DNA of 64,000 nucleotides from Pseudomonadota bacterium (GTDB lineage Bacteria; Pseudomonadota; Gammaproteobacteria; Acidiferrobacterales; UBA6901): contig JAJYEE010000002.1 in NCBI GenBank assembly GCA_021790335.1, positions 130,164-194,163 of the forward strand, written 5' to 3'. The notes beneath the pieces were generated by a model that ran no database searches, was not told the origin of the DNA, and worked only from the letters and a program-made list of their open reading frames with translations. Shown piece after piece: positions 27,315 to 58,843 of this stretch. A program made the translations under genes and the position numbers. Numbering within the stretch: position 1 is the first letter of the stretch; every line of letters begins with the position of its first letter.

Positions 27315-27824
27315 TTAACCGGGCAGAAACCCACCTTCAAGTTTTCTGAGCAGGCGCTCTGCCTCAAAAATCCCGGACTCGCCGAAAACATGCACTCCGC
27401 TGTCCCGCAGCAGCGCCGCCGTGACGCCCAGACCGGCAATCCGTGTACCGCTGAATGTTCCGTCGTAGATGTTTCCGGTGCCGCACGAGGGGCTGTTTTC
27501 CTTCAGGATGGCGATGCGTATTCCCTTCTCCTGAACGAGCTTGAGCGTTTTTCTGGCGCCCTGAACGAAATACTCTGACACATCCTGGCCTTCGCAGTTT
27601 ATGACTTTCGCGGTTCCCAGCAGTACCTTCAATCCACCGGCAGCCGCAGCGATCTCCGCGCGCGGACGCGGGACCGGCAGACCGCCGGCCACTTCCGGGC
27701 ATGCCTCGACAATGCGTCCTTCATCGCGCCATCGCCTGAGCACCGCATGGTCACAGAACCGGCCTGCGCCGTCGAATCGTACCGCCTGCCCCATCAGGCA
27801 GGCACTAACGAGAACAGATTCCAT
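27315..27824 (-). CDS. DUF523 family protein
   Basis: An intact 169-residue DUF523 protein. Conserved features are the N-terminal VSACLMGQAVRFDG with one cysteine, VEACPEVAGGLPVPR, and LKENSPSCGTG with a second. The cysteines suggest a metal or sulfur-related site; the family function is not established. It is the working counterpart of the broken copy at 1481-1981, and like that copy it lies near a NiCoT permease gene on the same strand. Confidence 0.88.
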   Translation of the reverse strand: MESVLVSACLMGQAVRFDGAGRFCDHAVLRRWRDEGRIVEACPEVAGGLPVPRPRAEIAAAAGGLKVLLGTAKVINCEGQDVSEYFVQGARKTLKLVQEKGIRIAILKENSPSCGTGNIYDGTFSGTRIAGLGVTAALLRDSGVHVFGESGIFEAERLLRKLEGGFLPG

Positions 27825-28247
27825 ATCGTATCCAGGCGCATCTTTTCTTGAGGCTGGCTGGCCGCTGCAATCTTCCGGGCACCGTCAGCGGTATCATCGC
27901 AACCATGTTCCTTCGATTGCCGGGATGGCATGACCGGCAATCTCGAATTTCCTGATGCCATTGTTCATGCAACCACGCAGCCGGATCCGCGACAACCGGT
28001 GCATCTTGTACCCCTGCTCCGTTCCGAACGGGAATAACGAAAAAAATAACCGTGATCAACGCCGCAGGCCACGCCGCTGAAGTCCGTGCACTGCACAAAC
28101 AGGCGCAAACCTAGACTATGAAGCGCCGTGATTGGCGGGGCGGAGCCCGGACGGGGCGCGGCCGCCGGTTTCCGCACAACTGCTGCGTGCCGGGCTCGGG
28201 TTGCCGCACGCCTGCGCTGTCCGGCGGTTCCGGTCGGGCACAGGATA
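27825..28247. other. Intergenic region between the second NiCoT gene and DUF523
   Basis: About 420 bases with no supportable gene. GC-rich in 28130-28230 with several short inverted repeats; otherwise unremarkable. Confidence 0.5.
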
Positions 28248-29288
28248 TCAGCTGGCCTCATAGCCTTTGATCCGGTAGACAATCACTGATGCAACCCAGC
28301 CCGCAATGAAAATTGCGACGATGAAAAGACCGGCCATTCCGAAATGCCCGTTTACGGAACGGACCTTGTCCCAGAAAAATCCATTGAAATGGAATTCCCC
28401 GGCAACAAGGCCGATGGTTTCGATCGCGCCTATCAGCACGGCAACAGTGACCGATACGCTTGTCACGGTGATATTGTAATAGAGTTTTCGTATCGGCTTC
28501 ATGAATGCCCAGCCGTATGCACCCAGCATCAGGATTCCGTCCGCGGTATCCATGAGGGACATGCCGGCCGCAAAAAGGACCGGAAACACCATGATCACCC
28601 AGACCGGCATCCCATGGAGCGCCCCGGCAGCCGCTATTGTGAGAAGACTCATCTCGGTTACGGTATCGAAACCGAAGCCGAAAAGCAGGCCGACAAAGAA
28701 CAGGTGCGAACTTTCCGTGACCAGCCGGAACATCGGCTGGAGTATCCTCGACAGGAATCCGCGTTTGTTCAGCAGCAGTTCCATTTCATGTTCGTCGTAC
28801 GCGCCACCGTTGCAGACATGTCTGAATGTGGCATATGCGGCTTTCGCGATGGCAATGTTGATCAGCGCCATGATGAACAGGAATGTCGCCGAAATGGCCG
28901 TTCCGACAATGCTGGCATCCTCATTTAATGACCGGAATCTGCCGTCAATCGAACTCATGGTCATGCAGATCGCGAATGTGGCGATTACAAGCACCAGTGA
29001 ATGGCCCAGGGAAAAATAAAGCCCGGTGGTCACGGGCCGCCTGCCACCCTGCATGAGCTTGCGGGTGGCACTGTCTATTGCCGCAATATGATCGGCGTCG
29101 AAGGCATGACGCAGGCCGAATGAATAGGCCAGCACTGCGGTTCCAAGCAGTACCGGATTGCCGTGAAGTACGATCAGCGCCCAGGTCCATGCTGCCACGT
29201 TGAAAGCCACAAGCAACAGCATCACGGTTGACACCTTGCTCGTCATGCCGCTGTTATTTTTCAGAAATACTCTCAGCTGTGCATACAT
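28248..29288 (-). CDS. NiCoT family nickel/cobalt permease, copy 2
   Basis: A 346-residue paralogue of the permease at 4790-5830, with the same length and signatures: RHAFDADHIAAID, YFSLGHSLV, GFGFDTVTE and GMSLMDTADG. The differing TATE/TVTE and TTDG/TADG residues near the metal path may alter Ni/Co preference. The ATG at 29288 is chosen over the frame start at 29342 because GGGAGG lies just upstream and the N-terminus then matches copy 1. The two copies diverge in sequence, so duplication is not recent or both were acquired separately. Likely role: uptake of cobalt or nickel for a metalloenzyme. Confidence 0.92.
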   Translation of the reverse strand: MYAQLRVFLKNNSGMTSKVSTVMLLLVAFNVAAWTWALIVLHGNPVLLGTAVLAYSFGLRHAFDADHIAAIDSATRKLMQGGRRPVTTGLYFSLGHSLVLVIATFAICMTMSSIDGRFRSLNEDASIVGTAISATFLFIMALINIAIAKAAYATFRHVCNGGAYDEHEMELLLNKRGFLSRILQPMFRLVTESSHLFFVGLLFGFGFDTVTEMSLLTIAAAGALHGMPVWVIMVFPVLFAAGMSLMDTADGILMLGAYGWAFMKPIRKLYYNITVTSVSVTVAVLIGAIETIGLVAGEFHFNGFFWDKVRSVNGHFGMAGLFIVAIFIAGWVASVIVYRIKGYEAS

Positions 29289-30282
29289 GTGCTGGCCTCC
29301 CGTTTTCCCGTGTTGATAAGCCGGTGCCGTCTGCCGCGACACACCGGTTCGCGCCCTCTGCCGGATCCTGGCTGAGCGGCGGAAACAGCGCGAAAAATCG
29401 CCGGGCAGCCCACCAATCCGGCTGCTGTTGTCGCACTCCCACAGATGATCATGCCTGTATCCACGCGCTCCACATTGATCTCTGTCAGTTGGCTCTGGTC
29501 CTGCATGGCAGGATTCGGCCGGTCCTGTTGTCCAGATCTGTCCGTCACGTCACCGCTTCGCAGGAGGCTATCATCGGCGCGGACCACTGGTTGACGCCGG
29601 GATTCGTATTCCTAAATACATTCTATTTTCCCGATGCATATGGAAAAACGCCGGTGATGCGATGTAACAGGCGTTGGCACGTCTGTATAGATAACTTGAA
29701 TATATTTATACAAGTATTTATTTTTATGGTATAAAATAGCTATTCCGCAGCAGCCACGGCTGCGGCCCCATCCTGTCGGCGACAGAATGTCCGATAGCGA
29801 TCCGTGGTGTTTGGCTATTTTGCCGTTGCGGGTGCTGGCGGGCAGGGTCAGGGATGGCGGATGATCCCGGCCAACCGGATCAGCAGTAATTCGAAACAAT
29901 TTCCGGAACGTCACGACCTCCAGCCGGTCGAACCAGGGAATGTGGCTGCATGACGCGGCGACGTCTGTGCGGGCGCTGCGTCACCGCCCCGTGCTACATA
30001 ATCCGGAAACCGCGCGTGGCGGCCCTGCCGGAATGGAGGGGGTTATCTCCCTGACCACAGAAGCCGCCGCAGGGGATTCTGTATACATCTATCAGGCATC
30101 GCCGCTGTCCAGATGGCCCGGTTGCCGCTTCGGGAAACCGAGCACGGCATCGGACTGCGGTCTATGGGCCACCGGGGAATAGGTCAGACGTCGTTTCACG
30201 CGACCCGCCAGGCTTTGCGGTCCGCACGGCAGGTTCATGACGCCGGGTAACCCGGCGGATTTTCCCCATCAGGAGGAACTTA
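29289..30282. other. Divergent 1 kb region upstream of the glucoamylase operon
   Basis: No supportable gene. It contains an AT-rich island with an inverted repeat, a TATAAAAT box and two hairpins at 29690-29785 (listed separately), and a good ribosome-binding site AGGAGG before the glucoamylase start. Confidence 0.5.
29694..29785 (+). promoter_or_regulatory. AT-rich operator-like repeat, promoter box and hairpins
   Basis: ACTTG (29694-29698) and CAAGT (29711-29715) form an inverted repeat across an A/T-only spacer. TATAAAAT follows at 29730-29737. Two hairpins come next: CCGCAGC/GCTGCGG (29745-29751 and 29759-29765) and CTGTC/GACAG (29773-29777 and 29781-29785). It could be a promoter with a structured transcript start. 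Confidence 0.4.
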
Positions 30283-32655
30283 ATGCACGCACCAGGCCAT
30301 CCTGGAATTACCCCGACATGGACGACCAGCGCCAAGGAGATGGTAGGCACGGCGCTTGGACCGTCACGCATCTGGTTCACGGCCAGCCATGGCATTCTCA
30401 ATGAGATCTACTATCCGCGCGCGGATATTCCCCAGACAAGGGACCTCGGATTCATCGTCGCCGATGGCAGCGGGTTCTGGGTCGAGGTGAAGCGGCTGGA
30501 AGGCTGTAAAATCCGTCTCCCCGGCCCGGGCATCGCAGCGATGGAAATCGAGCACACCCATCCGCGTTTCAGGCTGCGGCTGCGGTTAACCCCTGATCCG
30601 CTGCGGGATGTGATGCTGGTCGAGGTGAACTTGACGGGTGACGCAGACCTGCGCCCCTATGTGCTGCTCGCACCGCATCTTGGCGGTACGGGTTATGGCA
30701 ACACGGCCATGACTGGCCGCCACGCGGGCTGGACCATGCTTTGGGCGGAACAGGGGCCTTTCGGTCTCGCCCTCGCCGCGGCCGACGATCAGCAGTGCGA
30801 TGCCCTGCAGCGTACCAGCGCCGGATATGTCGGCGTAAGCGACGGCTGGCAGGATTTCTCCGCCAACGGCGTGATGTCCTGGACTTATGATGTTGCCGGA
30901 CCCGGCAATGTCGCGCTCGTGGGGGAACTTCCGCGCCAAACCACGCTGGCCGTCGGATTCGGCAGCAGCAAGGAAGCCGCTGCAACACTCGCAATTTCAT
31001 CGCTGGCCCAGCCATTCGAAAATGCCTGGCAGAGTCAGGTTACGTGCTGGCAGAGCTGGCATGCCGACCGTACCCGCACCTGCGCCCTGCCAAAAGTTCT
31101 CGACTCCAGACTGATTGATATCTTCCAGACTTCGGCCATGGTGCTGCGTACCCACCAGGACAAAACCTACCCGGGGGCCATGGTGGCAAGCCTGAGTATT
31201 CCCTGGGGCAGTACCAAGGATGATCTCGGCGGATACCATCTGGTGTGGCCACGCGACCTGGTGGAAAGTGCCGGTGCGCTGCTCGCCCTGGGGGCCGTAG
31301 ACGAAGCGCGCGATATCCTCCGTTACCTCATTGCGACGCAGCAGGCGGACGGACACTGGTTCCAGAACCAGTGGCTCGGGGGCAAACCGTACTGGTCGGG
31401 CATTCAGCTCGATGAGGCAGGCTTTGCGGTACTGCTCGCCTCGGAGCTTGCGGAACGCAATGCCCTTGACGGGATCGTCGTGAATGACATGGTCCGCCGT
31501 GCGCTCAGTTTCATCGCCCAGAATGGTCCCGGTACACAGCAGGACCGCTGGGAAGAGGATGCAGGGATCAACCCCTTCACGCTTGCGGTGAGCATCGCCG
31601 CCCTCGTCTGCGGCGCACAATTCCTTGCGGATCCTGCACGCGATTTTGCCCTGGATCTGGCGGACTACTGGAATTCGCGCATCGAACACTGGACGACCGT
31701 GCACGGCACGCAGCTTGCGCAGGCGTACGGCGTGTCGGGCTACTACGTGCGCATGGCGCCCACGCAGGTCCTGGAAGGTCGTTCGGCACTGGCGTCGATA
31801 CTGTCTATCAAGAACCGGATGCACGATCCGAACTTTCCTGCCGAAGAACAGGTCGGCGGCGACTTCTTGCAGCTGGTACGTTTCGGGCTGAGGCGTGCCG
31901 ATGATCCGCTGGTGCGCGCCACCGTCAAGGTGACCGATGCGCTGCTGCGCGTCGATACGCCCAGCGGCCCCGCCTGGCACCGCTACAACGGCGACGGTTA
32001 CGGTGAACATCCGGACGGATCCGGATTCAACGGCACGGGTCGCGGCCGCGCGTGGCCGCTGCTCACCGGCGAGCGGGGTCATTTCGCGCTCAGTGCCGGA
32101 GAAGACGCCCTGCCCTACCTGCGCGCCATGGCAGCCATGACCGGCCCATGCGGCTTGATCCCGGAACAGGTCTGGGACAGCGCGCCGATTCCGGAGCGCG
32201 GTCTCTACCCCGGACGGCCTTCAGGATCGGCCATGCCGCTCGTCTGGGCGCACTCCGAATTTATCAAGCTGGCGTCAAGCATGGCGCTCGGCCGACCTTT
32301 CGACCGGCCGGAAGTGGTCTGGAAACGCTACGAGGGGCGGCGGCCGGAAACTCCATGGGCGCACTGGAGTCCGAATGTCCGCCTGCGCCGAATTCCGAGC
32401 GGCAAACGCCTGCGGATCTGCCTGCCGCAACCTGCGATGATCCACTGGGGCACGGATGGCTGGCACAACGCGGCAGACATCGTGACACGGGAAACCGGTC
32501 TCGGTATCCACATGGTGGAACTGCCGACAGCCTCTCTGCAGCCTGGCCAGCGCATCGATTTCACGTTCCGCTGGAGCCAAGACTGCCGCTGGCAGGGTGA
32601 AGATTATACTGTCGTCGTAAGACCGCACAGCACCACCGGCAAAGATGGACGCTGA
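30283..32655 (+). CDS. Glucoamylase, glycoside hydrolase family 15
   Basis: A 790-residue protein with the bacterial GH15 layout: an N-terminal beta-sandwich (about 1-260), a linker, an (alpha/alpha)6 barrel (about 275-680) and a short C-terminal sheet domain. It releases glucose from non-reducing ends of alpha-glucans. The likely general acid is in DRWEEDAGINPF (E424/E425) and the general base in GLIPEQVWD (E628). DLGGYHLVWPRDLVESAGAL is the family hallmark near the active site. There is no signal peptide, so the substrate is probably intracellular or the enzyme acts on glycogen-like material. First gene of a four-gene row; its end overlaps the GMC gene by 11 bases. Confidence 0.95.
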   Translation: MHAPGHPGITPTWTTSAKEMVGTALGPSRIWFTASHGILNEIYYPRADIPQTRDLGFIVADGSGFWVEVKRLEGCKIRLPGPGIAAMEIEHTHPRFRLRLRLTPDPLRDVMLVEVNLTGDADLRPYVLLAPHLGGTGYGNTAMTGRHAGWTMLWAEQGPFGLALAAADDQQCDALQRTSAGYVGVSDGWQDFSANGVMSWTYDVAGPGNVALVGELPRQTTLAVGFGSSKEAAATLAISSLAQPFENAWQSQVTCWQSWHADRTRTCALPKVLDSRLIDIFQTSAMVLRTHQDKTYPGAMVASLSIPWGSTKDDLGGYHLVWPRDLVESAGALLALGAVDEARDILRYLIATQQADGHWFQNQWLGGKPYWSGIQLDEAGFAVLLASELAERNALDGIVVNDMVRRALSFIAQNGPGTQQDRWEEDAGINPFTLAVSIAALVCGAQFLADPARDFALDLADYWNSRIEHWTTVHGTQLAQAYGVSGYYVRMAPTQVLEGRSALASILSIKNRMHDPNFPAEEQVGGDFLQLVRFGLRRADDPLVRATVKVTDALLRVDTPSGPAWHRYNGDGYGEHPDGSGFNGTGRGRAWPLLTGERGHFALSAGEDALPYLRAMAAMTGPCGLIPEQVWDSAPIPERGLYPGRPSGSAMPLVWAHSEFIKLASSMALGRPFDRPEVVWKRYEGRRPETPWAHWSPNVRLRRIPSGKRLRICLPQPAMIHWGTDGWHNAADIVTRETGLGIHMVELPTASLQPGQRIDFTFRWSQDCRWQGEDYTVVVRPHSTTGKDGR

Positions 32656-34183
32656 CGTCATTATCATAGGTACCGGCGCCGGAGGCGGCACGCTCGCCCG
32701 CACCCTGTCCGGCAGCGGACTGAAAGTACTGCTGCTGGAGCGTGGCGACTTTCTCCCACGCAGCAAGAGCAACTGGGACCCGGAGGCGGTATTTCACCGG
32801 CATGCCTTTCATGTCAGTGAGCAGTGGCTCGACGGCCAGGGCAGGCCGTTCCGTCCCGTCACCGGCTACCACGTGGGCGGCAATACCAAACTGTTCGGTG
32901 CCGCTGTGCTGCGCCGCCGCGAGCATGATTTCCGCACCATACGGCACGCCGACGGCGATACCGTAGCGTGGCCAATCGGCTACCGGGATCTGGCTCCCTT
33001 CTATGACCGGGCAGAAACCTGGTTCTTCACCCATGGACAGCGGGGAGAGGACCCGACAGAGCCGCCTGCCGATCGCCCCTACCCTTACCCTCCGGTGAGC
33101 CACGAGCCGGCCGTCGAGATGGTTTGCCGCCAGCTCCTGGCGCAGGGCCTGCATCCCTTTCATCTGCCGCTGGCCATCCACCTGGATGAAACGCATCCCG
33201 CCGCCAGCCCCTGCATCCGCTGCGATACCTGCGATGGCTTCCCCTGCCTGGTGCACGCCAAGGGTGATGCCGAGGTGAGCGCAGTGCGTCCCGCCCTCGA
33301 CGATCCGGCAATCCGGCTGGAGACCGGGGTGCGCGTGCTCCGTCTGCTCTCATCGGACGATGGCCGCCGGGTCGCGACTGTCGAGGCCACTGGACCGCAC
33401 GGGCCACGGACATTCAGCGCGCGCGTCGTCGTGCTGGCGGCAGGCGCAGTCAACTCCGCAGCGCTGCTGCTCGCGTCCGCCGCGAACACCCATCCGCATG
33501 GCCTGGCCAACGGATCCGGACAGGTCGGACGCAACTACATGTGTCACCTGAATTCGGTCATGCTGGCGCTGTCACCGTGGAACAGCCGTGCGTCCGTTTT
33601 CCAGAAGACCCTGGGCATCAACGATTATTATCACGATTCCGGGGATGCGGGATTTCCCTATCCACTTGGCCATGTGCAACTGCTCGGCAAGGTGACCGGC
33701 GCGGTTCTGAAGGCCGAACGGCCGCTGCTGCCCGCGGCCATTGCCCGGTGGTTCGGCCGGCATTCCGTCGACTGGTGGCTGACGACCGAGGACCTGGCCC
33801 GCCCGGAGAACCGCGTTACCCTGGCGGACAACGGACAGATCCGGCTCAGTTACACACCCAACAATCTCGAGGCGCACGCGCGGCTGCTTTCGACATGGCG
33901 CCACGTACTGCGCCGGATCGGTTTTGCGTTCATCTTCGCGCAGCGTATCGGTATCGAAGGTGTGGCACACCAGGTAGGCACGGCACGCTTCGGTGAGGAT
34001 CCCGCGCAAAGCGTGCTCGATCCGTACTGCCGTGCCCATGAGCTAGATAACCTGTTCGTCGTGGACGGCAGCTTCATGCCCTCGATCGCGGCAGTCAATC
34101 CGTCGCTCACCATCATGGCCCAGGCACAACGTGTCGGTGAATATCTCAAAGCGCGACTTGCCCAGGGTGACTGGCATGTCTAG
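32645..34183 (+). CDS. GMC family FAD oxidoreductase
   Basis: A 512-residue GMC-type flavoprotein. FAD-binding motif GTGAGGGTLARTL is at residues 9-21 with the acidic LLERGD after it. A cluster CIRCDTCDGFPCLVHAKGDAE (four cysteines) lies mid-protein, then VLAAGAVNSAALLLAS, and the C-terminal VVDGSFMPSIAAVNPSLTIMA. The cysteine cluster resembles that of bacterial membrane-bound or gluconate-type GMC dehydrogenases rather than glucose oxidase. With a glucoamylase upstream and an SDR downstream it probably oxidises glucose or a related sugar/alcohol (inference). It overlaps both neighbours, so translation is coupled. Confidence 0.9.
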   Translation: MDADVIIIGTGAGGGTLARTLSGSGLKVLLLERGDFLPRSKSNWDPEAVFHRHAFHVSEQWLDGQGRPFRPVTGYHVGGNTKLFGAAVLRRREHDFRTIRHADGDTVAWPIGYRDLAPFYDRAETWFFTHGQRGEDPTEPPADRPYPYPPVSHEPAVEMVCRQLLAQGLHPFHLPLAIHLDETHPAASPCIRCDTCDGFPCLVHAKGDAEVSAVRPALDDPAIRLETGVRVLRLLSSDDGRRVATVEATGPHGPRTFSARVVVLAAGAVNSAALLLASAANTHPHGLANGSGQVGRNYMCHLNSVMLALSPWNSRASVFQKTLGINDYYHDSGDAGFPYPLGHVQLLGKVTGAVLKAERPLLPAAIARWFGRHSVDWWLTTEDLARPENRVTLADNGQIRLSYTPNNLEAHARLLSTWRHVLRRIGFAFIFAQRIGIEGVAHQVGTARFGEDPAQSVLDPYCRAHELDNLFVVDGSFMPSIAAVNPSLTIMAQAQRVGEYLKARLAQGDWHV

Positions 34184-35381
34184 ATCGGCGATCGCGGTGT
34201 CGACAATCTACGGCGCAGGTTTGCTGCAGGGTTTCGCTTTCGTGCTCATTCCCGCTCTGGGAACGCTCCTCAAGGGCGCCCCTTATCATCTGTCGGCGAC
34301 CGATTATGGCAGCCTGTTTCTGCCCATGACCGCGGGGGCCATCGTCAGTGCGCTGACCGCCGGCACCCTCGACCGCCGTATCGGCGCCAGTGGCGTGTTC
34401 CGGCTGGGGCTAGCGGCCAATACGCTGGCGTTGTGCCTGCTTGTCGGCAGTGCCGCATATGCCGGACATCCGGCCGCCTACGTCATGCTGATGGCGGAAA
34501 CTGCGCTCCTTGGCCTGGGGTTCGGATTCAACCTCTCCGCCATCAATCATCTTGCCGCCATGCTGTTTCCACAGAGCGAAACCGCGGCGGTGACTCTGCT
34601 TAATGCCGTGATCGGCGGGAGCACCGCGCTCTCGCCGCTGATACTCAACCTGTTCGAAGCCACACACCAATGGTGGCTTTGGCCGCTGGAACTGATCGCC
34701 GGATTCCTGACGGTCCTGGGTCTGTCCGCAAGCCTTCGCAAAACTCATGCTGGCAGCATGTCTGCCAACGGGGACGCGGCCCCCGGGCCTTCTTTATTGA
34801 TGTTCGGCCTCGCAGTATTGATTTATGCGATCGTCGAGGGCACGTTCGGCAGCTGGGCAGCGCTCTACGTCAGCGGCAGTCATCATCTGCCTCCTCGCTA
34901 TGGCGCCTGGGCGCTGTCCGCATTCTGGGGGGCAATGACGGCATTCCGGCTGCTGTTCGGTCTTGTTCCGTCTCGCTGGGCGCCACCGCGGGTCGTCTAT
35001 CGTACGTCGCCGATAGTAATCGCAGCCTGCTTTCTGGCGCTGCCGTACGTGTCTGCTCCATGGGAGCTTGTCGGCGCGTTCGCGGCCGCGGGAGCCGCAT
35101 GCAGTATCTACTACCCGTATACCATGTCGTTCGCTCTGGAAACACATGCCCAGCGCCAGACGCAAGCAGCGGGTCTGCTGGTTGCAGCCCTGATGAGCGG
35201 TGAAGGCATTGGTTCCTATGCGCTCGGTCCGCTACAGAAACACTTAAACCTGTCCGTGATTTACGGATTCTCGGCACTATGGACTTTGCCCTTATTCGGG
35301 CTGGCCTTTTTGCTGAGCCGCGTCAACACCGACCAGGGGCGAAAGCACACCGATCCTCATGCGGCTATCAACAAGATCTGA
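34176..35381 (+). CDS. MFS transporter
   Basis: A 401-residue major facilitator with about twelve hydrophobic segments in two halves separated by a hydrophilic stretch near LRKTHAGSMSANGDAAPG. The ATG at 34176 overlaps the GMC stop by 8 bases. The family fold is seen in the repeated G-rich TM segments and LDRRIGASGVF, the usual basic loop between TM2 and TM3. Its position suggests movement of a sugar or sugar acid connected with the glucoamylase/GMC genes; substrate not predictable. Confidence 0.88.
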   Translation: MSRSAIAVSTIYGAGLLQGFAFVLIPALGTLLKGAPYHLSATDYGSLFLPMTAGAIVSALTAGTLDRRIGASGVFRLGLAANTLALCLLVGSAAYAGHPAAYVMLMAETALLGLGFGFNLSAINHLAAMLFPQSETAAVTLLNAVIGGSTALSPLILNLFEATHQWWLWPLELIAGFLTVLGLSASLRKTHAGSMSANGDAAPGPSLLMFGLAVLIYAIVEGTFGSWAALYVSGSHHLPPRYGAWALSAFWGAMTAFRLLFGLVPSRWAPPRVVYRTSPIVIAACFLALPYVSAPWELVGAFAAAGAACSIYYPYTMSFALETHAQRQTQAAGLLVAALMSGEGIGSYALGPLQKHLNLSVIYGFSALWTLPLFGLAFLLSRVNTDQGRKHTDPHAAINKI

Positions 35382-35395
35382 CAAGGAGTAAGGCA

Positions 35396-36196
35396 ATGAT
35401 TACCATCGATTTGAAAGGCAAGCGCGCGCTGGTCACCGGGTCCAGCTCCGGAATCGGCGAGGCCATCGTCCATGCCCTGGCAGAGGCCGGCGCCGACGTG
35501 GCAGTGAACTATCTCGAAGACCCTGCCGGCAAGGATGCAGCCGATGCCGAGCGGGTTGCGGCAGCGGCCCGGCAGTACGGCGTGCGCGCAGTGAGCCTTG
35601 CAGCGGACATATCGAACGCCGGTCAGGTTGAACAGATGTTCGCTGCGATGGACCGTGAACTCGGCGGCGTGGACATTCTGGTAAATAATGCCGGCATTGA
35701 CGGTGTTGCTGCCCGCTGCTGGGAGTCGAACCCGACCGACTGGTATCGGGTGATACAGATTAATCTGTTCGGCGCCTATCACTGCGCGCGCGAGGCTCTG
35801 AAACGGATGACGGCCGCGCACCATGGTGTAATCATCAATATCAGCTCGGTGCACGAGAGCATTCCGTGGAGCGGTTACAGCGCCTATACCTGCTCGAAAG
35901 CGGCGCTAACCATGCTGACCCAAACACTCGCGCAGGAAACCGCGGACCTGGGCGTGCGCGTGCTTGGAGTGGCGCCCGGGGCCATCAAGACCCATATCAA
36001 TAAAGCGGTATGGAGCAACCCGGACACTCTCAAGGACCTGCTCAGAAAAATACCCGCCAATCGCATGGGCGAACCCGCCGAGATCGGCCGCATGGTGGCA
36101 CTGCTGGCGAGCGACATGGCATCGTATGTCACCGGACCCAGTCTGCTGGTGGATGGGGGCATGGTGCTCTATCCCTCCTTTCGCCATGGCGGATGA
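35396..36196 (+). CDS. SDR family oxidoreductase, glucose 1-dehydrogenase-like
   Basis: A 266-residue classical short-chain dehydrogenase. NAD(P) motif TGSSSGIGEAI is near residues 15-25, NNAG is present, and the catalytic S-Y-K set is in ISSVHE...YSAYTCSKAAL. The C-terminal GPSLLVDGGMVLYPSF is typical of glucose 1-dehydrogenase-like SDRs. The ATG at 35396 has AAGGAGTAAGG upstream; the frame extends further to 35279 inside the MFS gene without homology. Fourth in the operon. It may oxidise glucose to gluconolactone with NAD(P), complementing the GMC enzyme. Confidence 0.88.
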   Translation: MITIDLKGKRALVTGSSSGIGEAIVHALAEAGADVAVNYLEDPAGKDAADAERVAAAARQYGVRAVSLAADISNAGQVEQMFAAMDRELGGVDILVNNAGIDGVAARCWESNPTDWYRVIQINLFGAYHCAREALKRMTAAHHGVIINISSVHESIPWSGYSAYTCSKAALTMLTQTLAQETADLGVRVLGVAPGAIKTHINKAVWSNPDTLKDLLRKIPANRMGEPAEIGRMVALLASDMASYVTGPSLLVDGGMVLYPSFRHGG

Positions 36197-36302: not shown

Positions 36303-36560
36303 GTTACATATAATCATCGTTAACCCGCATCCGTCCCGGCACAACAGCTTTCACAGTGACCCAATAACGCTGTGGTGACCCATGGCGGCCATCTGCGGTC
36401 TGCTCAGCGCTGGTGACACTCGACCACACTGCGCGCTTCCGGCATACTGGCACGCCGTGTTACAGCGTATCGACGGTCTTGATGCCAGGGGATTTGGAAG
36501 TTTTTCCACCAGAAGGTCTACGACGGGCGATGTGAAGCGCGCACCATGCATCGGGCAATC

Positions 36561-37130
36561 ATGCATCCCTTATTTGTAACGACCAGCCTTGTCGCCCTGG
36601 CCGAAATCGGCGACAAGACGCAAGTTCTCTCGCTCCTGCTCGCGGCACGCTACCGTCGGCCTGCGCCGATCATCCTCGGTGTTCTCGGAGCAACCGTGCT
36701 CAGTAACGGCCTGGCCGCCAGCCTGGGCGACCTATTGGCGCGCGTGCTGACGCCGGCAATCCTGAATTGGGCAGTCCTTTTGTCCTTCGTGGCGATGGGG
36801 CTGTGGATCATGATTCCCGACAAATTACGCGAAGATGACCTGCCGCTGCGGTCCGCTGCGGGCGTCTTCATGGCCACTCTGATGTCGTACTTTCTTGCCG
36901 AGATGGGTGACAAAACACAGATCGCCACCGTGGCACTGGCCGCGCGGTTCCAGGAATGGCTTCCGGTCGTTGCGGGGACAACCTTGGGCATGATGCTGGC
37001 GAATATTCCTGTGATCGTCTTCGGACATCGCTTTGCCGACCGCCTTCCGGTGCGATGGATCCATGCCATTGCTGCGGTGTTCTTTCTGGTTCTCGGCGGA
37101 CTTGCGCTTCGTAGAGCACTTGAGGGATGA
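36561..37130 (+). CDS. GDT1/TMEM165 family cation exchanger (UPF0016)
   Basis: A 189-residue membrane protein with two homologous halves, each carrying the family signature E-x-G-D-K-T: EIGDKTQVLSLLLAARY in the first and EMGDKTQIATVALAARF in the second. Members export manganese or exchange Mn/Ca for protons. About six transmembrane segments are visible. The ATG at 36561 (MHPLF) fits family N-termini better than the one at 36546. No clear ribosome-binding site. I did not find a yybP-ykoY manganese riboswitch upstream. Confidence 0.9.
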   Translation: MHPLFVTTSLVALAEIGDKTQVLSLLLAARYRRPAPIILGVLGATVLSNGLAASLGDLLARVLTPAILNWAVLLSFVAMGLWIMIPDKLREDDLPLRSAAGVFMATLMSYFLAEMGDKTQIATVALAARFQEWLPVVAGTTLGMMLANIPVIVFGHRFADRLPVRWIHAIAAVFFLVLGGLALRRALEG

Positions 37131-41020: not shown

Positions 41021-42808
41021 ATGAATAGATGGCGGGTCGAGTCGCAGATCCTGTTCGCATTCACGCTCGCGCTCGTAGTGCTCGCGATCGTGGGCGCGCT
41101 GGTCTATCGCGCGATGGCCGGATTCATCGACACCAGCAAGGCCGCTGCGGCCTCCCAGCAAGCACTGTCGGCATTCGATGGTATCGATTCATCATTGAAT
41201 CAGGTCACTGCCCACGAACGCAGCTACCTCATCCTCGGCGACAAAGGCGACCTTGCCGCGCGTCAGGCTGCGGTCGCCCGCGTCAACACGTACCTCGCCG
41301 AGCTCGATCGGCTTTTGTCCGACGACCCACAGCAGAATGCGCGGCTGCGCATACTCCGCCGTACTGTTACCGATCGGTTGCTACTATTCGAGCAGCCGCT
41401 CTCAGGTCGCCTGCGCAGCTTTTCGGAAATCCGCCAGCGGCTCACCATCGGACCGGGACACACGTTGATGCGCCGGGTCCGCAACCAAGTGGGCCAGATG
41501 GAACAGGCGGAGATGGCCCAGCTGACCCAGCGGCGGATGGAAACTGACCGTCACCTGCACGAGACGCTCGCCACCCTTGCGATTCTGCTTCTTTTTTCCG
41601 CTGCATCCCTGTCACTTTTATATGTCGGTATCCGACGCGAGATTCACGAACGTCTCCAGGCTGAAGCTGCATTGAAAAAGCATGCGGAACTCCTGCGTGA
41701 GAGCGAGCAGCGCATGCATGCCATCGTTGACACTGCGGCTGAAGCGATCATCGTGATCGACGGGAATGGAATCATAGACCGCTTCAATGCTGCTGCTGAA
41801 CGTACATTCGGTTACAGCGCGTCCGAGGTCATCGGAAAAAACGTCTCTGTCCTGATGCCTGATTCCTACCGAGAACAGCATGACAGTTATATCAGCAACT
41901 ACCTGCGCACCGGCAACGCACGTATCATCGGCATGGGGCGAGAGACGGAAGGAAGACGCAAAGACGGTCGCATTTTCCCGGTAGAGCTTTCCGTGAGCGA
42001 GATACAGATTGCAGGAAAGCACTTGTTCACTGGGGTCCTGCGTGACATCAGCCGACGCAGGCAACGGGATCAGGAGCTTGCCAACACGATGCAGGAGCTT
42101 CAAAGTACCAACGAGGAGCTCAAGAACTTTGCCTACATTGTATCGCACGATCTCAAGGCGCCGCTGCGGGCCATCGGCTCGCTCGCCGACTGGCTTCGGG
42201 CCGATTACACCGATCGACTGGACTCCGAAGGCAAGGAGTTTCTGCGCCTGCTTGCCGGCCGCGTACGACGCATGGATCAGCTCATCGAAGGGATTCTTGA
42301 ATACTCGCGCGTTGGCCGTGTTAAGGAGACAAGAGTTTCCGTGGATCTCGATGAGATGATCCACGAGATCTTGGACCTTCTTTCCCCGCCTCCGCACATT
42401 CGCGTCGAAGTCGAAGGTCCGCTGCCGGTTCTGACCGCCGAGCCGACACGCATGCGCCAGCTCTTTCAGAATCTGCTTTCCAATGCCATAAAATATATGG
42501 ATAAACCCGAAGGGCTTATCCGCATCTCCGGACATGCGGCTAATGGCGAATGGCACTTCAGCGTCTCCGACAACGGGCCAGGTGTCGAACACCGGCATCA
42601 CGAGAAGATTTTTCAACTGTTTCAGACACTCGCTCCTCGCGACCGCATCGAGGGCACGGGTGTGGGGCTTGCGCTGGCAAAGAAGATTGTCGAGTTTTAC
42701 GGTGGTCGTATCTGGATCGAATCCACACCCGGGCAGGGAAGCAGCTTCTTCTTTACCTTGCGACAAGCATCATTGACACGATTTTCAAACACGGAAGGCA
42801 TGCTATGA
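41021..42808 (+). CDS. Sensor histidine kinase, CHASE3 + FixL-type haem PAS
   Basis: A 595-residue membrane kinase. TM1 is about residues 11-31, a CHASE3-like periplasmic domain spans 35-180, TM2 is about 184-204, a PAS domain 230-345, HisKA has H376 (VSHDLKAPLRAIG), and HATPase_c has the N-box LLSNAIKY, DNGPGV and GTGVGLALAK. The PAS is strikingly like the haem PAS of Bradyrhizobium FixL: HDSYIS and IIGMGR give H287 and R307, the same 20-residue spacing as FixL His200 (haem ligand) and Arg220 (distal). It therefore probably binds haem and senses O2 or another gas. The HisKA type resembles phytochrome-linked kinases rather than FixL. Stop overlaps the next gene (ATGA). Confidence 0.88.
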   Translation: MNRWRVESQILFAFTLALVVLAIVGALVYRAMAGFIDTSKAAAASQQALSAFDGIDSSLNQVTAHERSYLILGDKGDLAARQAAVARVNTYLAELDRLLSDDPQQNARLRILRRTVTDRLLLFEQPLSGRLRSFSEIRQRLTIGPGHTLMRRVRNQVGQMEQAEMAQLTQRRMETDRHLHETLATLAILLLFSAASLSLLYVGIRREIHERLQAEAALKKHAELLRESEQRMHAIVDTAAEAIIVIDGNGIIDRFNAAAERTFGYSASEVIGKNVSVLMPDSYREQHDSYISNYLRTGNARIIGMGRETEGRRKDGRIFPVELSVSEIQIAGKHLFTGVLRDISRRRQRDQELANTMQELQSTNEELKNFAYIVSHDLKAPLRAIGSLADWLRADYTDRLDSEGKEFLRLLAGRVRRMDQLIEGILEYSRVGRVKETRVSVDLDEMIHEILDLLSPPPHIRVEVEGPLPVLTAEPTRMRQLFQNLLSNAIKYMDKPEGLIRISGHAANGEWHFSVSDNGPGVEHRHHEKIFQLFQTLAPRDRIEGTGVGLALAKKIVEFYGGRIWIESTPGQGSSFFFTLRQASLTRFSNTEGML

Positions 42809-43224
42809 AAATAACAAGCAGGCCCATATTGCTGGTCGAAGACGACGATGTCGACGCAATGGCTGTGCATCGTGCATTCAAAGCACTGCACATCACGAAC
42901 CGCCTGGAACGTGCCGAAAATGGCGAGAAAGCGCTTGCCTACCTGCATGACGACACCAATGAGCGGCCTTGTTTGGTCCTTCTCGACATCAACATGCCTG
43001 TTATGGGCGGCATAGAGTTTTTGCGAGTGGTCAAGGACGGCAACCACGACCTCAGGCGCATTCCGGTGGTCGTGCTCACGACCTCCGCGGAGCAGCAGGA
43101 CAAGGTCGAGAGTTTCGACCTCGGAGTGGCCGGCTACATGAAGAAGCCCGTGGACTACCAGCAGTTCATCGAGACCGTGCGCACGATTGATCGCTACTGG
43201 ACGGTCAGCGAGATGCCGGAGTAG
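42805..43224 (+). CDS. Single-domain response regulator (Rcp1-like)
   Basis: A 139-residue receiver without output domain. Acid pocket VEDDD, phosphoacceptor D61 in LLDINMP, conserved Thr in VVLTTSAEQQD and Lys in MKKPVDYQQFIETV. Such Rcp1/CheY-type regulators typically take phosphate from Cph1-type kinases like the one it overlaps by four bases. It may pass phosphate on or act by protein interaction, for example on the REC-PAS-kinase encoded next. Confidence 0.93.
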   Translation: MKITSRPILLVEDDDVDAMAVHRAFKALHITNRLERAENGEKALAYLHDDTNERPCLVLLDINMPVMGGIEFLRVVKDGNHDLRRIPVVVLTTSAEQQDKVESFDLGVAGYMKKPVDYQQFIETVRTIDRYWTVSEMPE

Positions 43225-43233
43225 CCAGACCGC

Positions 43234-44751
43234 ATGGGTACGCCAATCGTACGCCTGCTGCTCATAGAGGATGACCAGGTAGACCGTCTGGCATGCCGAC
43301 GCGCGCTCAGCCGCCTGACCGGTAGCGTCTTCGACATACACGAGACCGATCTGGCCCGGGATGGACTTGCCTATGCGCGCGCCCATCATCCCGACCTCAT
43401 TCTGCTTGATTACCGCTTGCCCGATCTGAATGGCGTGGAAGTCCTGTCTGAGCTCCGCATGTTCGAGGAAGCACCTCCGGTGATCATGATGACCAGTGCC
43501 GGAGATATCTCGGTCGCAGTCGAAGCCATGCGCTCCGGGGCGTGTGACTACCTCCTCAAGGATACGGCCGGCGAATACCTGGCGCTGCTGCCCACCGTCA
43601 TCGAGCGCGCACTGCGAGAGCAGCAGATGCGCACGGAAAAGCGTTGCATGGAAGAGGCCCTACGGCTGGAACGGGACTTCATCTCCGCAGTACTTGCCAC
43701 CGTGGGGGCCGTGGTCATTGTGCTCGATCGCGAAGGGAGGATCGTGCGCATGAACCAGGCCTGCGAAACCATATCCGGATACAGTTTCGAGGAGGCGCAA
43801 GGGAAATTCGTCTGGGACCTGATGCTACCCCCCAAGGAAATCGGTCCAGTCAAAAAAGTTTTCGCGCAACTGCAAGATGGCCTGTTTCCAAACAGCTTCG
43901 AGAACTGCTGGCGCCACAAAAGCGGCGCGGAGCGCTTCATTGCCTGGTCGAACACGGCACTAACCAACTCTGCCGGCGAGGTCGAATACGTGATTGCGAC
44001 CGGAGTCGACATTACCGAACGTCGATCTGCTGAGGAAGCTGCACTTCGCTACCAGGTCGAAATCGAGCGGATCTACCGCCAGTATGCTCTTGGCGCATTT
44101 GCTTCCGTATTTGCGCATGAACTCAATCAGCCGCTCGCAGCGATCGTCAGCTACAGCGATGCGAGTCTGCGGATGATCCGCAACGGTCAGCAGGACGGAC
44201 AACTCAACCGCAACATCGAGCAGACCGCGCTACAGGCGCAACGCGCTGCGCACATCATTCGCGATATAAGGCACTTTTTGCGTCGTGGCGCGCCCGAGAC
44301 GTCGGTGGAAGATCTGAACAGTCTCGTTGACAAGATCGTCTCCCAAGTCGCGCCCGAGGCCGAGGTGGCCGGAATCAGTCTGAATCTGGACCCGGGCATC
44401 GTACCGATGGTGCGCATCGGACGCATTGCGGTCGAGAAGGTGCTGCTCAATCTGCTGCAAAATGCGCTGGAAGCGATGCGCGACAGCGATACACAGAACG
44501 GTGTGGTCACTGTGCGCACCCAGACGGATGATGCTGGTTTCGCGCGAATCAGCGTTGCGGACACAGGACCGGGCCTTGACCCCGAAGATGCAAAACGGCT
44601 GTTTCAGCCTTTTTTTACCACCAAAGCTGAAGGACTCGGAATGGGTCTTGCCATCAGCCGCACCATCGTAGAAGCTCATGGGGGCCGGCTGTGGTCCGAA
44701 CCTGCGCAGGGAGGTGCCATATTTCACTTTACCGTCCCTATCGAACCATGA
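43234..44751 (+). CDS. Hybrid kinase: receiver + PAS + FixL-type HisKA/HATPase
   Basis: A 505-residue cytoplasmic protein. The N-terminal receiver has acceptor D59 in LILLDYRLP, a PAS domain covers about 148-265, and a FixL-family kinase core has H295 in FAHELNQPLAAIVSY, N-box LLQNALEAM, DTGPGL and GLGMGLAISR. The PAS lacks the H...R haem pair seen in the first kinase. There is no membrane segment. With FixJ-like encoded immediately downstream (ATGA overlap) it is the likely FixJ kinase, while its own receiver can take input from the upstream pair. This input-receiver arrangement differs from classical FixL. Confidence 0.9.
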   Translation: MGTPIVRLLLIEDDQVDRLACRRALSRLTGSVFDIHETDLARDGLAYARAHHPDLILLDYRLPDLNGVEVLSELRMFEEAPPVIMMTSAGDISVAVEAMRSGACDYLLKDTAGEYLALLPTVIERALREQQMRTEKRCMEEALRLERDFISAVLATVGAVVIVLDREGRIVRMNQACETISGYSFEEAQGKFVWDLMLPPKEIGPVKKVFAQLQDGLFPNSFENCWRHKSGAERFIAWSNTALTNSAGEVEYVIATGVDITERRSAEEAALRYQVEIERIYRQYALGAFASVFAHELNQPLAAIVSYSDASLRMIRNGQQDGQLNRNIEQTALQAQRAAHIIRDIRHFLRRGAPETSVEDLNSLVDKIVSQVAPEAEVAGISLNLDPGIVPMVRIGRIAVEKVLLNLLQNALEAMRDSDTQNGVVTVRTQTDDAGFARISVADTGPGLDPEDAKRLFQPFFTTKAEGLGMGLAISRTIVEAHGGRLWSEPAQGGAIFHFTVPIEP

Positions 44752-45368
44752 CTCCGACCGTCTTTCTCGTGGATGACGACGCTGCTGTGCGCGATGCGCT
44801 CGGCGTCCTGTTCCGCACCGAGGGGCTCACGGTGTCCGCCTATGCGAGCGCCGAGAATTTCCTCGCGACCTGTCCGCTCGATGTCTGCGGCTGCCTCGTG
44901 CTTGACTTGCACATGCCGGGCATGGGCGGCATCGAACTGCAGAAGGCGCTTTCCGAGCAAAATATCCTGCTGCCCATCATCTTTCTCACCGGGCATGGCG
45001 ATATCCCCATGTCCGTGCGCGCACTCAAGGCCGGGGCCGTAGATTTTCTAGAAAAGCCTGCCAATCCGGATGCGCTGCTCGCGCGCGTGCGTGACGCACT
45101 TGCGCAGGACTTGCGCCGTCGCACGGTCGGCGCAGAACAAGCCGCCCTTGGCGCCCTGTACGACCGCCTTACCGTGCGCGAGCGCGAAATTCTGGCGCAG
45201 GTCTCGGATGGAAAAACCAGCAAGGAGATCGCCCGTTCGCTCGGGATCAGCCCGCGAACCGTCGAAGTCCATCGCAGCCACATCATGGGAAAGCTCGGTG
45301 CCGACAGCCTGGCCGATCTGATCAGGATCGGGCAACTTTGCGCTTCCGCCACTTTTCCGGACCTCTAG
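44748..45368 (+). CDS. FixJ-like response regulator with LuxR HTH
   Basis: A 206-residue two-domain regulator: receiver with D53 in LVLDLHMPGMGG, conserved Thr in IFLTGHGDIPMSVRA and Lys in FLEKPA, then a LuxR-type helix-turn-helix LTVREREILAQVSDGKTSKEIARSLGISPRTVEVHRSHIM. FixJ/NodW/TtrR-type proteins are activated by FixL-family kinases. Start ATG 44748 overlaps the kinase stop. Probably activates the FixK-like gene downstream or cytochrome genes. Confidence 0.93.
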   Translation: MTPTVFLVDDDAAVRDALGVLFRTEGLTVSAYASAENFLATCPLDVCGCLVLDLHMPGMGGIELQKALSEQNILLPIIFLTGHGDIPMSVRALKAGAVDFLEKPANPDALLARVRDALAQDLRRRTVGAEQAALGALYDRLTVREREILAQVSDGKTSKEIARSLGISPRTVEVHRSHIMGKLGADSLADLIRIGQLCASATFPDL

Positions 45369-56642: not shown

Positions 56643-56681
56643 ATGATTTCTCACTACGCCCGAAGCCGTATGGTACCGTGA
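56643..56681 (+). CDS. Short leader peptide coupled to the PAS kinase
   Basis: The ATG at 56643 follows AAGGAGGTGA by four bases, the best ribosome-binding site in the window. The 12-codon frame reads [12 protein letters not shown] and stops at TGA 56679-56681. That stop overlaps the GTG start of the kinase at 56678. The kinase itself has no ribosome-binding site, so it is probably translated by reinitiation. Confidence 0.55.
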
Positions 56682-58381
56682 CGATGACTCATGGTGATCT
56701 GGATTTCGAGCGGCTGTTCCGGGATGCCCCTGCACTGCTGCTCGTTCTCCAGGCTGATGCCCAGTTCACGATCCTGGACGCCACCGACGCCTACCTGCGC
56801 GCAACGTTCACCGAACGGACAAGGATCGTCAACCGCGGCTTATTCGACGTTTTCCCCGACAATCCCGACGATCATTCGGCAACCGGGACGCGGAATCTGC
56901 GCGCATCGCTGCAGCGCGTGATGGCCAGAAGAGCGCCTGACACAATGGCCGTCCAGAAATACGACGTACGCCGTCCGGACAGTACCGGCGGAGGTTTTGA
57001 GGAGCGATTCTGGAGTCCGGTCAACTCGCCGGTGTTGGCGTCAGACGGTCATATCCGCTACATCATCCACCGCGTCGAAGACGTGACCGACTACGTTCGC
57101 GGCAGCCTGCCGGAAGCCGTGCAGCACGAACCCTCCGATGCTGTCGAGCGCCGCAACCAGGCGCTGGAGCGCGAAATCCTCCAGCGCAGCCGCGAGCTGG
57201 ACGCGCTGAACAGAAACCTGCAGCAGATCAACGAAGCACTGAATGCCGAAATCGCCGAACGCAAGCGCGCCCAGAACTGGCTGTCCGAACTGCTGCGATC
57301 CGCTCCCGACGGGATCATCATCGTCGACCGCGAGGGCCGAGTCGTTCTCGCCAATGACCAAGCCGGGCTGCACTTCGGCTACACGCCTGAAGAGCTCATG
57401 GGCCAACCTATAGAAGTCCTGGTGCCGGACAAACAGCGTCGGGTCCATGCCAAACATCGCGCCGGATACATCTCAACACCGCGACGGCGCAATATGGGCG
57501 AAGGCCTGGAACTACTGGGACAACGCAAAGACGGAAGCTTTTTTCCCGTCGAAATCAGTCTGAGCCCCATAGAAACCGCGGAAGGTTTCTGGGTAGCAGG
57601 CATCATCCACGACATTACACAGCGTAAACAGGAGACCGAGCAGATCCGGCGGCTCAACGAGGATCTCCGCCGGCACACCGTTGAACTCGAGGCGGCCAAC
57701 CGCGAACTCGAAGCGTTCAGCTACTCAGTGTCGCATGATCTGCGCGCTCCGCTGCGTTCCATCGACGGGTTCAGCCAGGCACTGCTCGAGGATTACGCAG
57801 CACAGCTCGATCAGACTGCACGCGATCATCTCGCGCGCGTGCGCGCTGCCACGCAGCGCATGGGCGTGCTGATAGACGATCTGCTCGAACTTTCGCGTGT
57901 TACGCGCAGCGAATTGCACCCGGAAGCGATCGACTTCAGCGCCCTGGCCGAGTCTATTGCTGACGAACTGCGCCATACCCACCCGGCGCGGCAGGTGAAG
58001 GTCGACATCGAGCCCGGTCTGCAGGCCACGGGAGACGGCAGGCTGCTACGCATCGCGCTGACAAATCTGCTCTCGAATGCATGGAAGTTCACGGAGCCGC
58101 GCCCCATAGCACGCATTGAGGTCGGACGGTACGTGGCCGAAGACGGACGGTCGGGATTTTTCGTGCGTGACAACGGCGTCGGGTTCAACATGGCTTACGC
58201 GCACAAGCTCTTCGGGGCGTTCCAGCGGCTGCACACGGCGAATGAGTTCCCCGGAACCGGCATCGGACTCGCCACGGTGCAGCGTATCGTCCAGCGCCAC
58301 GGCGGGCGCATCTGGACCGAGGCCGCCGTCGACGCCGGGGCAAGCTTCTTTTTCACGTTACGGTCCGAAGCATCATCCTGA
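56678..58381 (+). CDS. Cytoplasmic PAS-PAS histidine kinase
   Basis: A 567-residue soluble kinase: PAS-like domain about 8-145, coiled coil 150-200, second PAS about 200-315 ([13 protein letters not shown]...[21 protein letters not shown]), HisKA with H353 ([15 protein letters not shown]), HATPase_c with [15 protein letters not shown] and GTGIGLATV. The second PAS has no FixL-type haem Arg. Start GTG 56678, with ATG 56684 as an alternative. It is followed 6 bases later by a single-domain regulator. The signal is unknown. Confidence 0.92.
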
Positions 58382-58387
58382 GGAAAC

Positions 58388-58843
58388 ATGGAAAACAAGA
58401 TTATTTTACTGGTTGAGGACAATCCCGATGACGAGGCGCTCACCTTGCGTGCTTTAAGCAGGAGCAACATCGCGAACACCGTGGTGGTGGCACGCGATGG
58501 TGTCGAGGCGCTGGACTACCTGTTTGCCCGCGGCGCCCATGCCGGACGCGACCCCGAGGACAAGCCGGCGGTGACACTTCTAGATCTGAAGCTTCCCAGG
58601 GTCGATGGGCTAGAAGTACTGGCCCAGATCCGATCCGCTCCGGCGACGCGACTTCTTCCGGTAGTCATCCTGACGTCCTCCCGGGAAGAACAGGATCTGA
58701 TAAACGGCTACCGTCTTGGCGCCAACAGCTATATCCGAAAACCCGTAGATTTCGCACAGTTCACCGAAGCGGTGCGCCAACTCGGGCTCTACTGGCTGGT
58801 GCTCAACGAGACCCCCAGGGACCCGCCGGGAGCAGCCAGATGA
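58388..58843 (+). CDS. Single-domain response regulator (Rcp1-like)
   Basis: A 151-residue receiver, similar to the one at 42805. Acid pocket VEDNPDD, acceptor D66 in LLDLKLPRVDG, conserved Thr in VILTSSREEQD and Lys in IRKPVDFAQF. Takes phosphate from the kinase just upstream. Overlaps the next gene by four bases, ATGA. Confidence 0.94.
   Translation: MENKIILLVEDNPDDEALTLRALSRSNIANTVVVARDGVEALDYLFARGAHAGRDPEDKPAVTLLDLKLPRVDGLEVLAQIRSAPATRLLPVVILTSSREEQDLINGYRLGANSYIRKPVDFAQFTEAVRQLGLYWLVLNETPRDPPGAAR

Follow-up and report, generated by a model that had tools for sequence, protein, structure and literature searches.

What can a bacterium do with glucose that is set free inside its own cytoplasm? 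The question is raised by four tightly packed genes in a 64,000-nucleotide stretch of DNA (the window) from a Pseudomonadota bacterium of the Acidiferrobacterales lineage UBA6901 (assembly GCA_021790335.1, contig JAJYEE010000002.1, positions 130,164 to 194,163), which encode, in order, a GH15 glycosidase, a GMC flavoenzyme, an MFS transporter, and an SDR enzyme. We favor, with a probability of roughly 0.6, the reading that this operon takes stored alpha-glucan apart to cytoplasmic glucose, which is then oxidized without phosphorylation; the most likely outcome would be oxidation of this glucose to gluconate, with the electrons passed to respiration.

Organization and enzymes of the operon

All four genes are transcribed rightwards, and comprise GH15 (30283–32655, 790 amino acids), GMC (32645–34183, 512 amino acids), MFS (34176–35381, 401 amino acids from the ATG at 34176, with an alternative open GTG start at 34131), and SDR (35396–36196, 266 amino acids from the ATG at 35396). 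The open reading frames and measured spacings confirm the layout given for 30283–36196 in the initial annotation: GH15 and GMC overlap by 11 bases, GMC and MFS overlap by 8 bases, and a gap of 14 bases separates MFS from SDR.

The GH15 protein has the Pfam domains Glucodextran_N (PF09137) and Glyco_hydro_15 (PF00723), and its best solved relatives are PDB 1ug9 (E 1.9e-111) and 1lf6 (E 1.3e-110). In the alignment with 1lf6, E424 and E628 fall at E438 and E636, which we take to be the catalytic residues, and the presence of both domains and the glutamate pair places the protein among the glucoamylases and glucodextranases. It shares its N-terminal and catalytic domains and the glutamate pair with both glucodextranase 1ug9, an enzyme type that cuts alpha-1,6 glucans, and the Thermoanaerobacterium glucoamylase 1lf6, which acts on alpha-1,4 linkages, but differs from them in having no signal-like N-terminus and in its score of 600.7 against NCBIfam model TIGR01535, below the cut-off of 741.9. 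A crude hydropathy scan, made with no signal-peptide predictor, found no signal-like N-terminus on the GH15, GMC, or SDR proteins, which supports the earlier description of a glucoamylase without a signal peptide, and a cytoplasmic GH15 enzyme.

The SDR protein (Pfam adh_short/adh_short_C2) has as its closest solved structure the glucose 1-dehydrogenase of Bacillus megaterium (PDB 1gee, E 1.4e-52), with which it aligns over its full length; the catalytic S151, Y164, and K168, the segment SSVHESIPW (shared as SSVHExIPW), and the C-terminal DGGMxLYPSF are kept. The cofactor motif TGSSSGIG, the S/Y/K residues, and the SVHE active-site segment are thus all present, and the NCBIfam glucose 1-dehydrogenase models score 220.3 bits against a cut-off of 215 (NF005559) and 230.3 bits against 420 (NF006493). 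The active-site match predicts an SDR of the glucose 1-dehydrogenase type although, unlike 1gee, it is encoded in an operon with a GH15 enzyme and an iron-sulfur (Fe-S)-type GMC enzyme.

The GMC protein (Pfam GMC_oxred_N and GMC_oxred_C) finds its best sequence matches in the FAD-glucose dehydrogenase (FAD-GDH) of Burkholderia (PDB 6a2u, E 7.1e-30) and the fructose dehydrogenase of Gluconobacter. An AlphaFold model built on 72 sequences (pLDDT 95.6) gives TM scores of 0.81–0.86 to fructose dehydrogenase and FAD-GDH in Foldseek, against 0.63–0.71 for the other rows listed, and Z scores of 39.2–41.3 in VIA, against at most 35.0 for the other rows listed; one set of nine chains heads both comparisons, clear of the remainder, and pyranose 2-oxidases are the next structural neighbors. 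The modeled fold is closest to the FAD-GDH and fructose dehydrogenase catalytic subunits. Residues H442 and N485 align with the catalytic His476 and Asn519 named for FAD-GDH in the available text of PMC6719666, and are present in 107 and 106, respectively, of the 107 aligned GMC sequences.

A cysteine motif, C-x2-C-x2-C-x4-C, is encoded at 33212–33247 (C190, C193, C196, and C201), and three of its members, C190, C196, and C201, align with C212, C218, and C222 of Burkholderia FAD-GDH, which ligate the 3Fe-4S cluster of that enzyme (PMC6719666, as far as its available text goes). All four cysteines are present in 80 of the 107 sequences, three (without C196) in 11, and none in 16, such that they are present or absent jointly, as would be the case for residues sharing one metal site. 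The initial annotation had singled out a four-cysteine cluster unlike glucose oxidase; this is correct, since the protein is kin of the Fe-S branch, but within this GMC branch, where three of the cysteines fall at 3Fe-4S ligand positions, the cluster is not odd. The window enzyme resembles Burkholderia cepacia FAD-GDH alpha (6a2u, 8grj) and the Gluconobacter fructose dehydrogenase large subunit in its fold, His/Asn pair, and cysteines at the 3Fe-4S position. It differs from them in its cysteine spacing, in having no signal peptide, and in having L83 at the position of His105, the residue said in the same source to bind FAD covalently in BcGDH (PMC6719666); histidine is found there in none of the 107 relatives. 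A further difference is that no hitchhiker or cytochrome c subunit gene is present at the window locus, either in the operon or among the window genes scanned with Pfam (8 + 10), a result that covers neighboring genes and not the genome.

A subgroup of the GMC relatives (L045–L060) has none of the four cysteines at 190–201; a different SDR lies nearby in 11 of these 16 loci and a glycosidase in none, and these enzymes possibly use a different acceptor or substrate.

The MFS protein is recognized by Pfam MFS_1 (PF07690, 58 bits) and has a weak NCBIfam match to TsgA that is below the cut-off. It has no solved relative at E <= 1, so its substrate cannot be inferred.

Conservation and company of the genes in other genomes

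Five genomes of the genus are available, that of the window among them, and the order GH15-GMC-MFS-SDR is kept in all four of the others, with spacings of -11, -8, and +13 to +22; this repetition indicates that the layout is more than chance. In genome G300 the set is split: contig C41 carries GH15 and the first part of GMC, C6 carries the remainder, and the two contigs overlap inside GMC. Protein identities to the window are 77–78% for GH15 (three genomes), 78–99% for GMC, 69–94% for MFS, and 85–99% for SDR.

At E <= 1e-100 the GMC gene is found in 8 of the 369 class genomes sampled, including the window's own, and at E <= 1e-60 in 25 of 299 genomes of the phylum. Six surroundings from the class sample were examined (G502 left out), and include two with SDR-GMC-MFS, one with GH63-GMC-MFS, and one with GMC-VOC-SDR-SDR-GH15, the last gene being trehalase-like. 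A wider set was taken as the best 80 loci by similarity from a genome_contigs scan; two are genus members and the other 78 are the distant loci studied here. Relatives of the set, with parts that can be exchanged, are thus spread over many bacterial groups: the best 80 represent Pseudomonadota, Cyanobacteria, Acidobacteria, Chloroflexi, Verrucomicrobia, Planctomycetes, Chlamydiae, and others, with Actinobacteria represented by Cellulomonas, Jiangella, and Streptomyces.

The full four-gene set recurs at four of the 78 distant loci (L063, L065, L069, and L070), in the order GH15-SDR-GMC-MFS, and two of these are incomplete, with the MFS gene of L070 cut by the contig end and split frames in L069. 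L065 comes from Sulfuriferula multivorans TTN and L070 from Acidithiobacillus sulfuriphilus CJ-2, both cultured strains. Two further loci are similar: in L064 a pyridine-nucleotide oxidoreductase takes the place of MFS after GH15-SDR-GMC, and L076 (Gallionellaceae) has GH15-SDR-GMC as far as the contig end. The order is thus kept within the genus, and the set is found outside it in another order, which answers the initial suggestion that conservation be checked and speaks against an arrangement found nowhere else. In a tree of the GMC proteins, built after 13 cysteine-less rows were removed, the window falls in a clade of 13 rows with full support (SH-aLRT 100). At L069:4889–7984 (Ca. Igneacidithiobacillus taiwanensis), both GH15 and SDR are split over two frames, reflecting either pseudogenes or assembly errors.

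To count the neighboring genes up to 6 kb from GMC, profiles were derived from the same loci. Four kinds of glycosidase were scored, and 41 of the 78 distant loci have at least one of them; in 28 it is in a same-strand string with GMC. The kinds are GH63/MGH1-like (24 loci), glucodextranase-type GH15 (8), trehalase-like GH15 (6), and debranching-enzyme-like (5), with two loci having two kinds. Near the cysteine-less GMC genes there is a glycosidase in 0 of 16 loci, a narrow control drawn from a single phylum, in which lineage is a confounder. On the GMC tree there are at least 23 changes in the kind of glycosidase, from which it follows that the pairing of GMC with a glycosidase arose repeatedly.

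Other families also recur at the 78 loci, including SDR (35), VOC (27), MIP (18), MFS (15), SGL (14), NDH-2-like (13), CydA, CydB, and CoxA (8 each), and ZnGDH and G6PD (7 each). The chance model treats loci as independent and genes as randomly placed in a 4-Mb genome; as real loci are related, and as the counted families were themselves selected for this recurrence, its P values should be read as no more than a guide. The motif SVH[E/Q] precedes the catalytic YxxxK in 25 of the 35 distant loci with an SDR, in 4 of 4 genus loci scored, in 1 of 5 cysteine-GMC loci of the phylum sample, and in 0 of 11 cysteine-less loci.

CydA and CydB, which form cytochrome bd, lie in a same-strand string with GMC at six loci (L079, L084, L116, L118, L125, and L128). 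L128 is ordered GH63-GMC-MFS-SDR-NDH2-CydA-CydB, and L125 has the same components as CydA-CydB-GH63-GMC-MFS-SDR-NDH2. Pfam agrees for CydA of L079, L084, L116, and L128 and for CydB of L128. The NDH-2 reading is firm at L125 and L117, where there is an NDH2_C domain; the NDH-2-like genes of L064, L068, L069, and L128 have a pyridine-nucleotide oxidoreductase match only.

Other groups have arrangements of their own. Seven cyanobacterial loci (L071, L072, L075, L077, L086, L092, and L111) contain GMC-GH63-GMC strings in which the second GMC is about 36–39% identical to that of the window, and in all of these apart from L077 the string directly follows cytochrome c oxidase-type genes. Eight Acidobacteria-type loci (L082, L085, L088, L090, L093, L096, L114, and L121) have strings of MIP (aquaporin family), GMC, and VOC (glyoxalase-fold) genes.

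Proposed fate of the glucose and of its electrons

Glycogen synthase is present in all five genus genomes, and the genus can thus make glycogen; in the window genome a GH57 branching-enzyme-like gene and glucokinase are on the same contig. In the pathway that we propose, GH15 would release glucose, as its family and catalytic residues suggest, and the SDR, judging by its active site, would oxidize glucose to gluconolactone with NAD(P)+. The GMC enzyme is predicted to be a soluble flavoprotein with an Fe-S cluster; it belongs to the FAD-glucose/fructose dehydrogenase branch and has no partner subunit encoded beside it. It would carry out a second, NAD-independent oxidation, with glucose or gluconate as putative substrates, and its electrons would reach the respiratory chain through that cluster, with quinone as the most likely acceptor. 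This electron route is suggested by the sister operons that contain NDH-2-like and cytochrome bd genes; in the genus, cytochrome bd is encoded in 5 of 5 genomes, elsewhere than in the operon. The MFS protein may move the oxidized product, more likely out of the cell than in, and this is the weakest step. Export is proposed because neither KDPG aldolase (PF01081; 0 of 5 genus genomes, against 8 of 14 named genomes as a control) nor a GntK-type gluconokinase (TIGR01313; 0 of 5, against 5 of 14) was matched, in searches that left aside FGGY-type kinases and the pentose phosphate route. A strong lactonase-family match occurs in one genus genome only (G302), and two weaker ones exceed the cut-off only when neighboring segments are added.

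The initial annotation had proposed that the set could release glucose, oxidize it with two dehydrogenases, and move the product, a reading that is borne out in part. Glucose as the shared substrate is favored by the SDR type, the kinship of the GMC enzyme, and the glycosidases near it, and is putative for the GMC enzyme itself. Several observations weigh against the proposed pathway. A glycosidase is absent within 6 kb at 37 of the 78 distant loci, although full flanks are available for 43 only, and is near just 1 of 9 cysteine-GMC loci of the phylum sample, which weakens the generality of the pairing. Glucokinase is present in 4 of the 5 genus genomes, so glucose can also be phosphorylated. 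There is no NDH-2-like or cytochrome bd gene inside the operon of this genus, and an NDH-2-like query finds only weak genus matches (best E 4e-10). As for the GMC enzyme itself, C196 is lacking in 11 of 107 relatives, so the match to the three FAD-GDH ligands does not hold throughout, and Asn474 and Asn475, said in the available text of PMC6719666 to fit glucose, align with V440 and A441, so that a different sugar may be oxidized or the attack may fall on another carbon.

This last substitution is compatible with a different outcome, in which the GMC enzyme makes a keto-sugar (e.g. at C2 or C3, in the manner of pyranose 2-oxidase or glucoside 3-dehydrogenase), the SDR reduces it, and the MFS transporter exports a rare sugar or compatible solute. 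The rank of pyranose 2-oxidases as the next structural neighbors and the inclusion of a transporter gene in the operon are in its favor, but the SDR belongs to the glucose 1-dehydrogenase type, sister operons with NDH-2-like and cytochrome bd genes point to electron disposal, and this GMC repeatedly has ZnGDH, SGL lactonase-family, and G6PD genes nearby; we regard it as unlikely, while placing it first among the alternatives.

The published branch most like the operon is the glycogen-glucose-gluconate route of obligate methanotrophs, in which, according to the available text of PMC8062543, glycogen-derived glucose is oxidized by a Bacillus-type glucose dehydrogenase, about 39% identical to the Bacillus enzyme, and gluconate is phosphorylated by GntK. 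With the kind of dehydrogenase and the glucose source alike, the operon could be a gluconate shunt into central metabolism, with MFS as an uptake carrier. The lack of KDPG aldolase and GntK-type matches in the five genus genomes makes this a somewhat poorer candidate again, and the operon differs from the methanotroph branch in holding GMC and GH15 genes; as far as the available text of PMC8062543 goes, that route has no GMC enzyme, and the term 'GMC' does not occur in its main text.

That the genes form a loosely assembled string with no common pathway is improbable: the order does differ between clades, with parts gained and dropped, but the four-gene set is kept in the genus and at four loci outside it, and GMC has been repeatedly paired with different glycosidases. 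A role for GMC in re-oxidizing a peptide redox cofactor, as MftG does in the mycofactocin system, with the SDR as the cofactor's partner, is highly improbable, because although MftG is its best NCBIfam match and passes electrons to respiration (PMC11778925, available text), the score of 83.7 bits is far under the cut-off of 387.45 and the mycofactocin radical-SAM maturase (TIGR03962) exceeds its cut-off in none of the 5 genus genomes; identity with MftG is rejected on these grounds.

The proposed oxidation of glucan-derived glucose may be one instance of something broader, and we put this forward as a speculation that is itself rather doubtful: a modular and widespread respiratory path that leads from stored alpha-glucosides to oxygen without glycolysis, built of one of four kinds of glycosidase, a glucose dehydrogenase, and a partnerless soluble Fe-S GMC enzyme that reduces quinone directly. 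Such a path would burn reserve sugar in part and expel the acid, and it would act as a valve for redox balance or oxygen instead of supporting growth; some lineages would encode an NADH dehydrogenase and a cytochrome bd oxidase of its own along with it. There is precedent for a GMC enzyme able to feed respiration in MftG (PMC11778925, as far as available). The single parts are already known, and the combination is possibly, though not provably, undescribed: a literature search of titles and abstract openings, with subscription journals outside its coverage, gave no description of this gene set among the matches listed.

If the proposal is true, chemolithotroph-like bacteria, among others, could oxidize their reserve polysaccharide directly with a flavin/Fe-S dehydrogenase that works without a partner subunit, with bearing on how autotrophs use their reserves and whether gluconate is excreted. 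A partner-free enzyme would also be of practical interest beside the related FAD-glucose dehydrogenase of glucose sensors, which needs a co-expressed partner, and the gene set is simple enough for testing with four recombinant proteins.

Mosaic structure and surroundings

The window operon is a mosaic of its relatives. The GH15-GMC DNA is 97–99% identical to that of G300 and the MFS-SDR part about 70%, whereas against G302 the pattern is reversed (about 70–85% for GH15-GMC and 88–98% for MFS-SDR). The pattern extends outward, with upstream DNA about 97% like G300 and downstream DNA about 94% like G302, and identity switches at about 34000–34300, at the GMC/MFS border (window 27421–34300 compared with L174/L035 of G300 and L032/L175 of G302). 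This may reflect between-species recombination that swapped half of the operon, or a chimeric assembly.

A purine-rich, ribosome-binding-like stretch, CATCAGGAGGAA (30267–30278, rightwards), precedes GH15, and a second, AAGGAG (35383–35388, rightwards), precedes SDR. Promoter-like sites upstream of GH15 are not above shuffle level, promoter and terminator scans gave counts of about shuffle level (3 against a mean of 2.6, and 7 against 4.8), and Rfam and tRNA searches of the whole window had no matches. The operon stands alone, as the upstream neighbor is a nickel-transport-like gene on the opposite strand (28248–29342) and the downstream neighbor is a GDT1-type gene (36546–37130), both assigned by Pfam. 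Its GC content (0.61–0.65) is near that of the other window genes sampled (0.54–0.62), and its third-position GC is 0.70–0.74 compared with 0.65–0.73. Elsewhere in the window there are two stretches of signaling genes, at 41021–45368 and 56678–60555, which include a CHASE3/PAS histidine kinase, a hybrid kinase, and a LuxR-type regulator, and a PAS kinase and a GGDEF-EAL response regulator.

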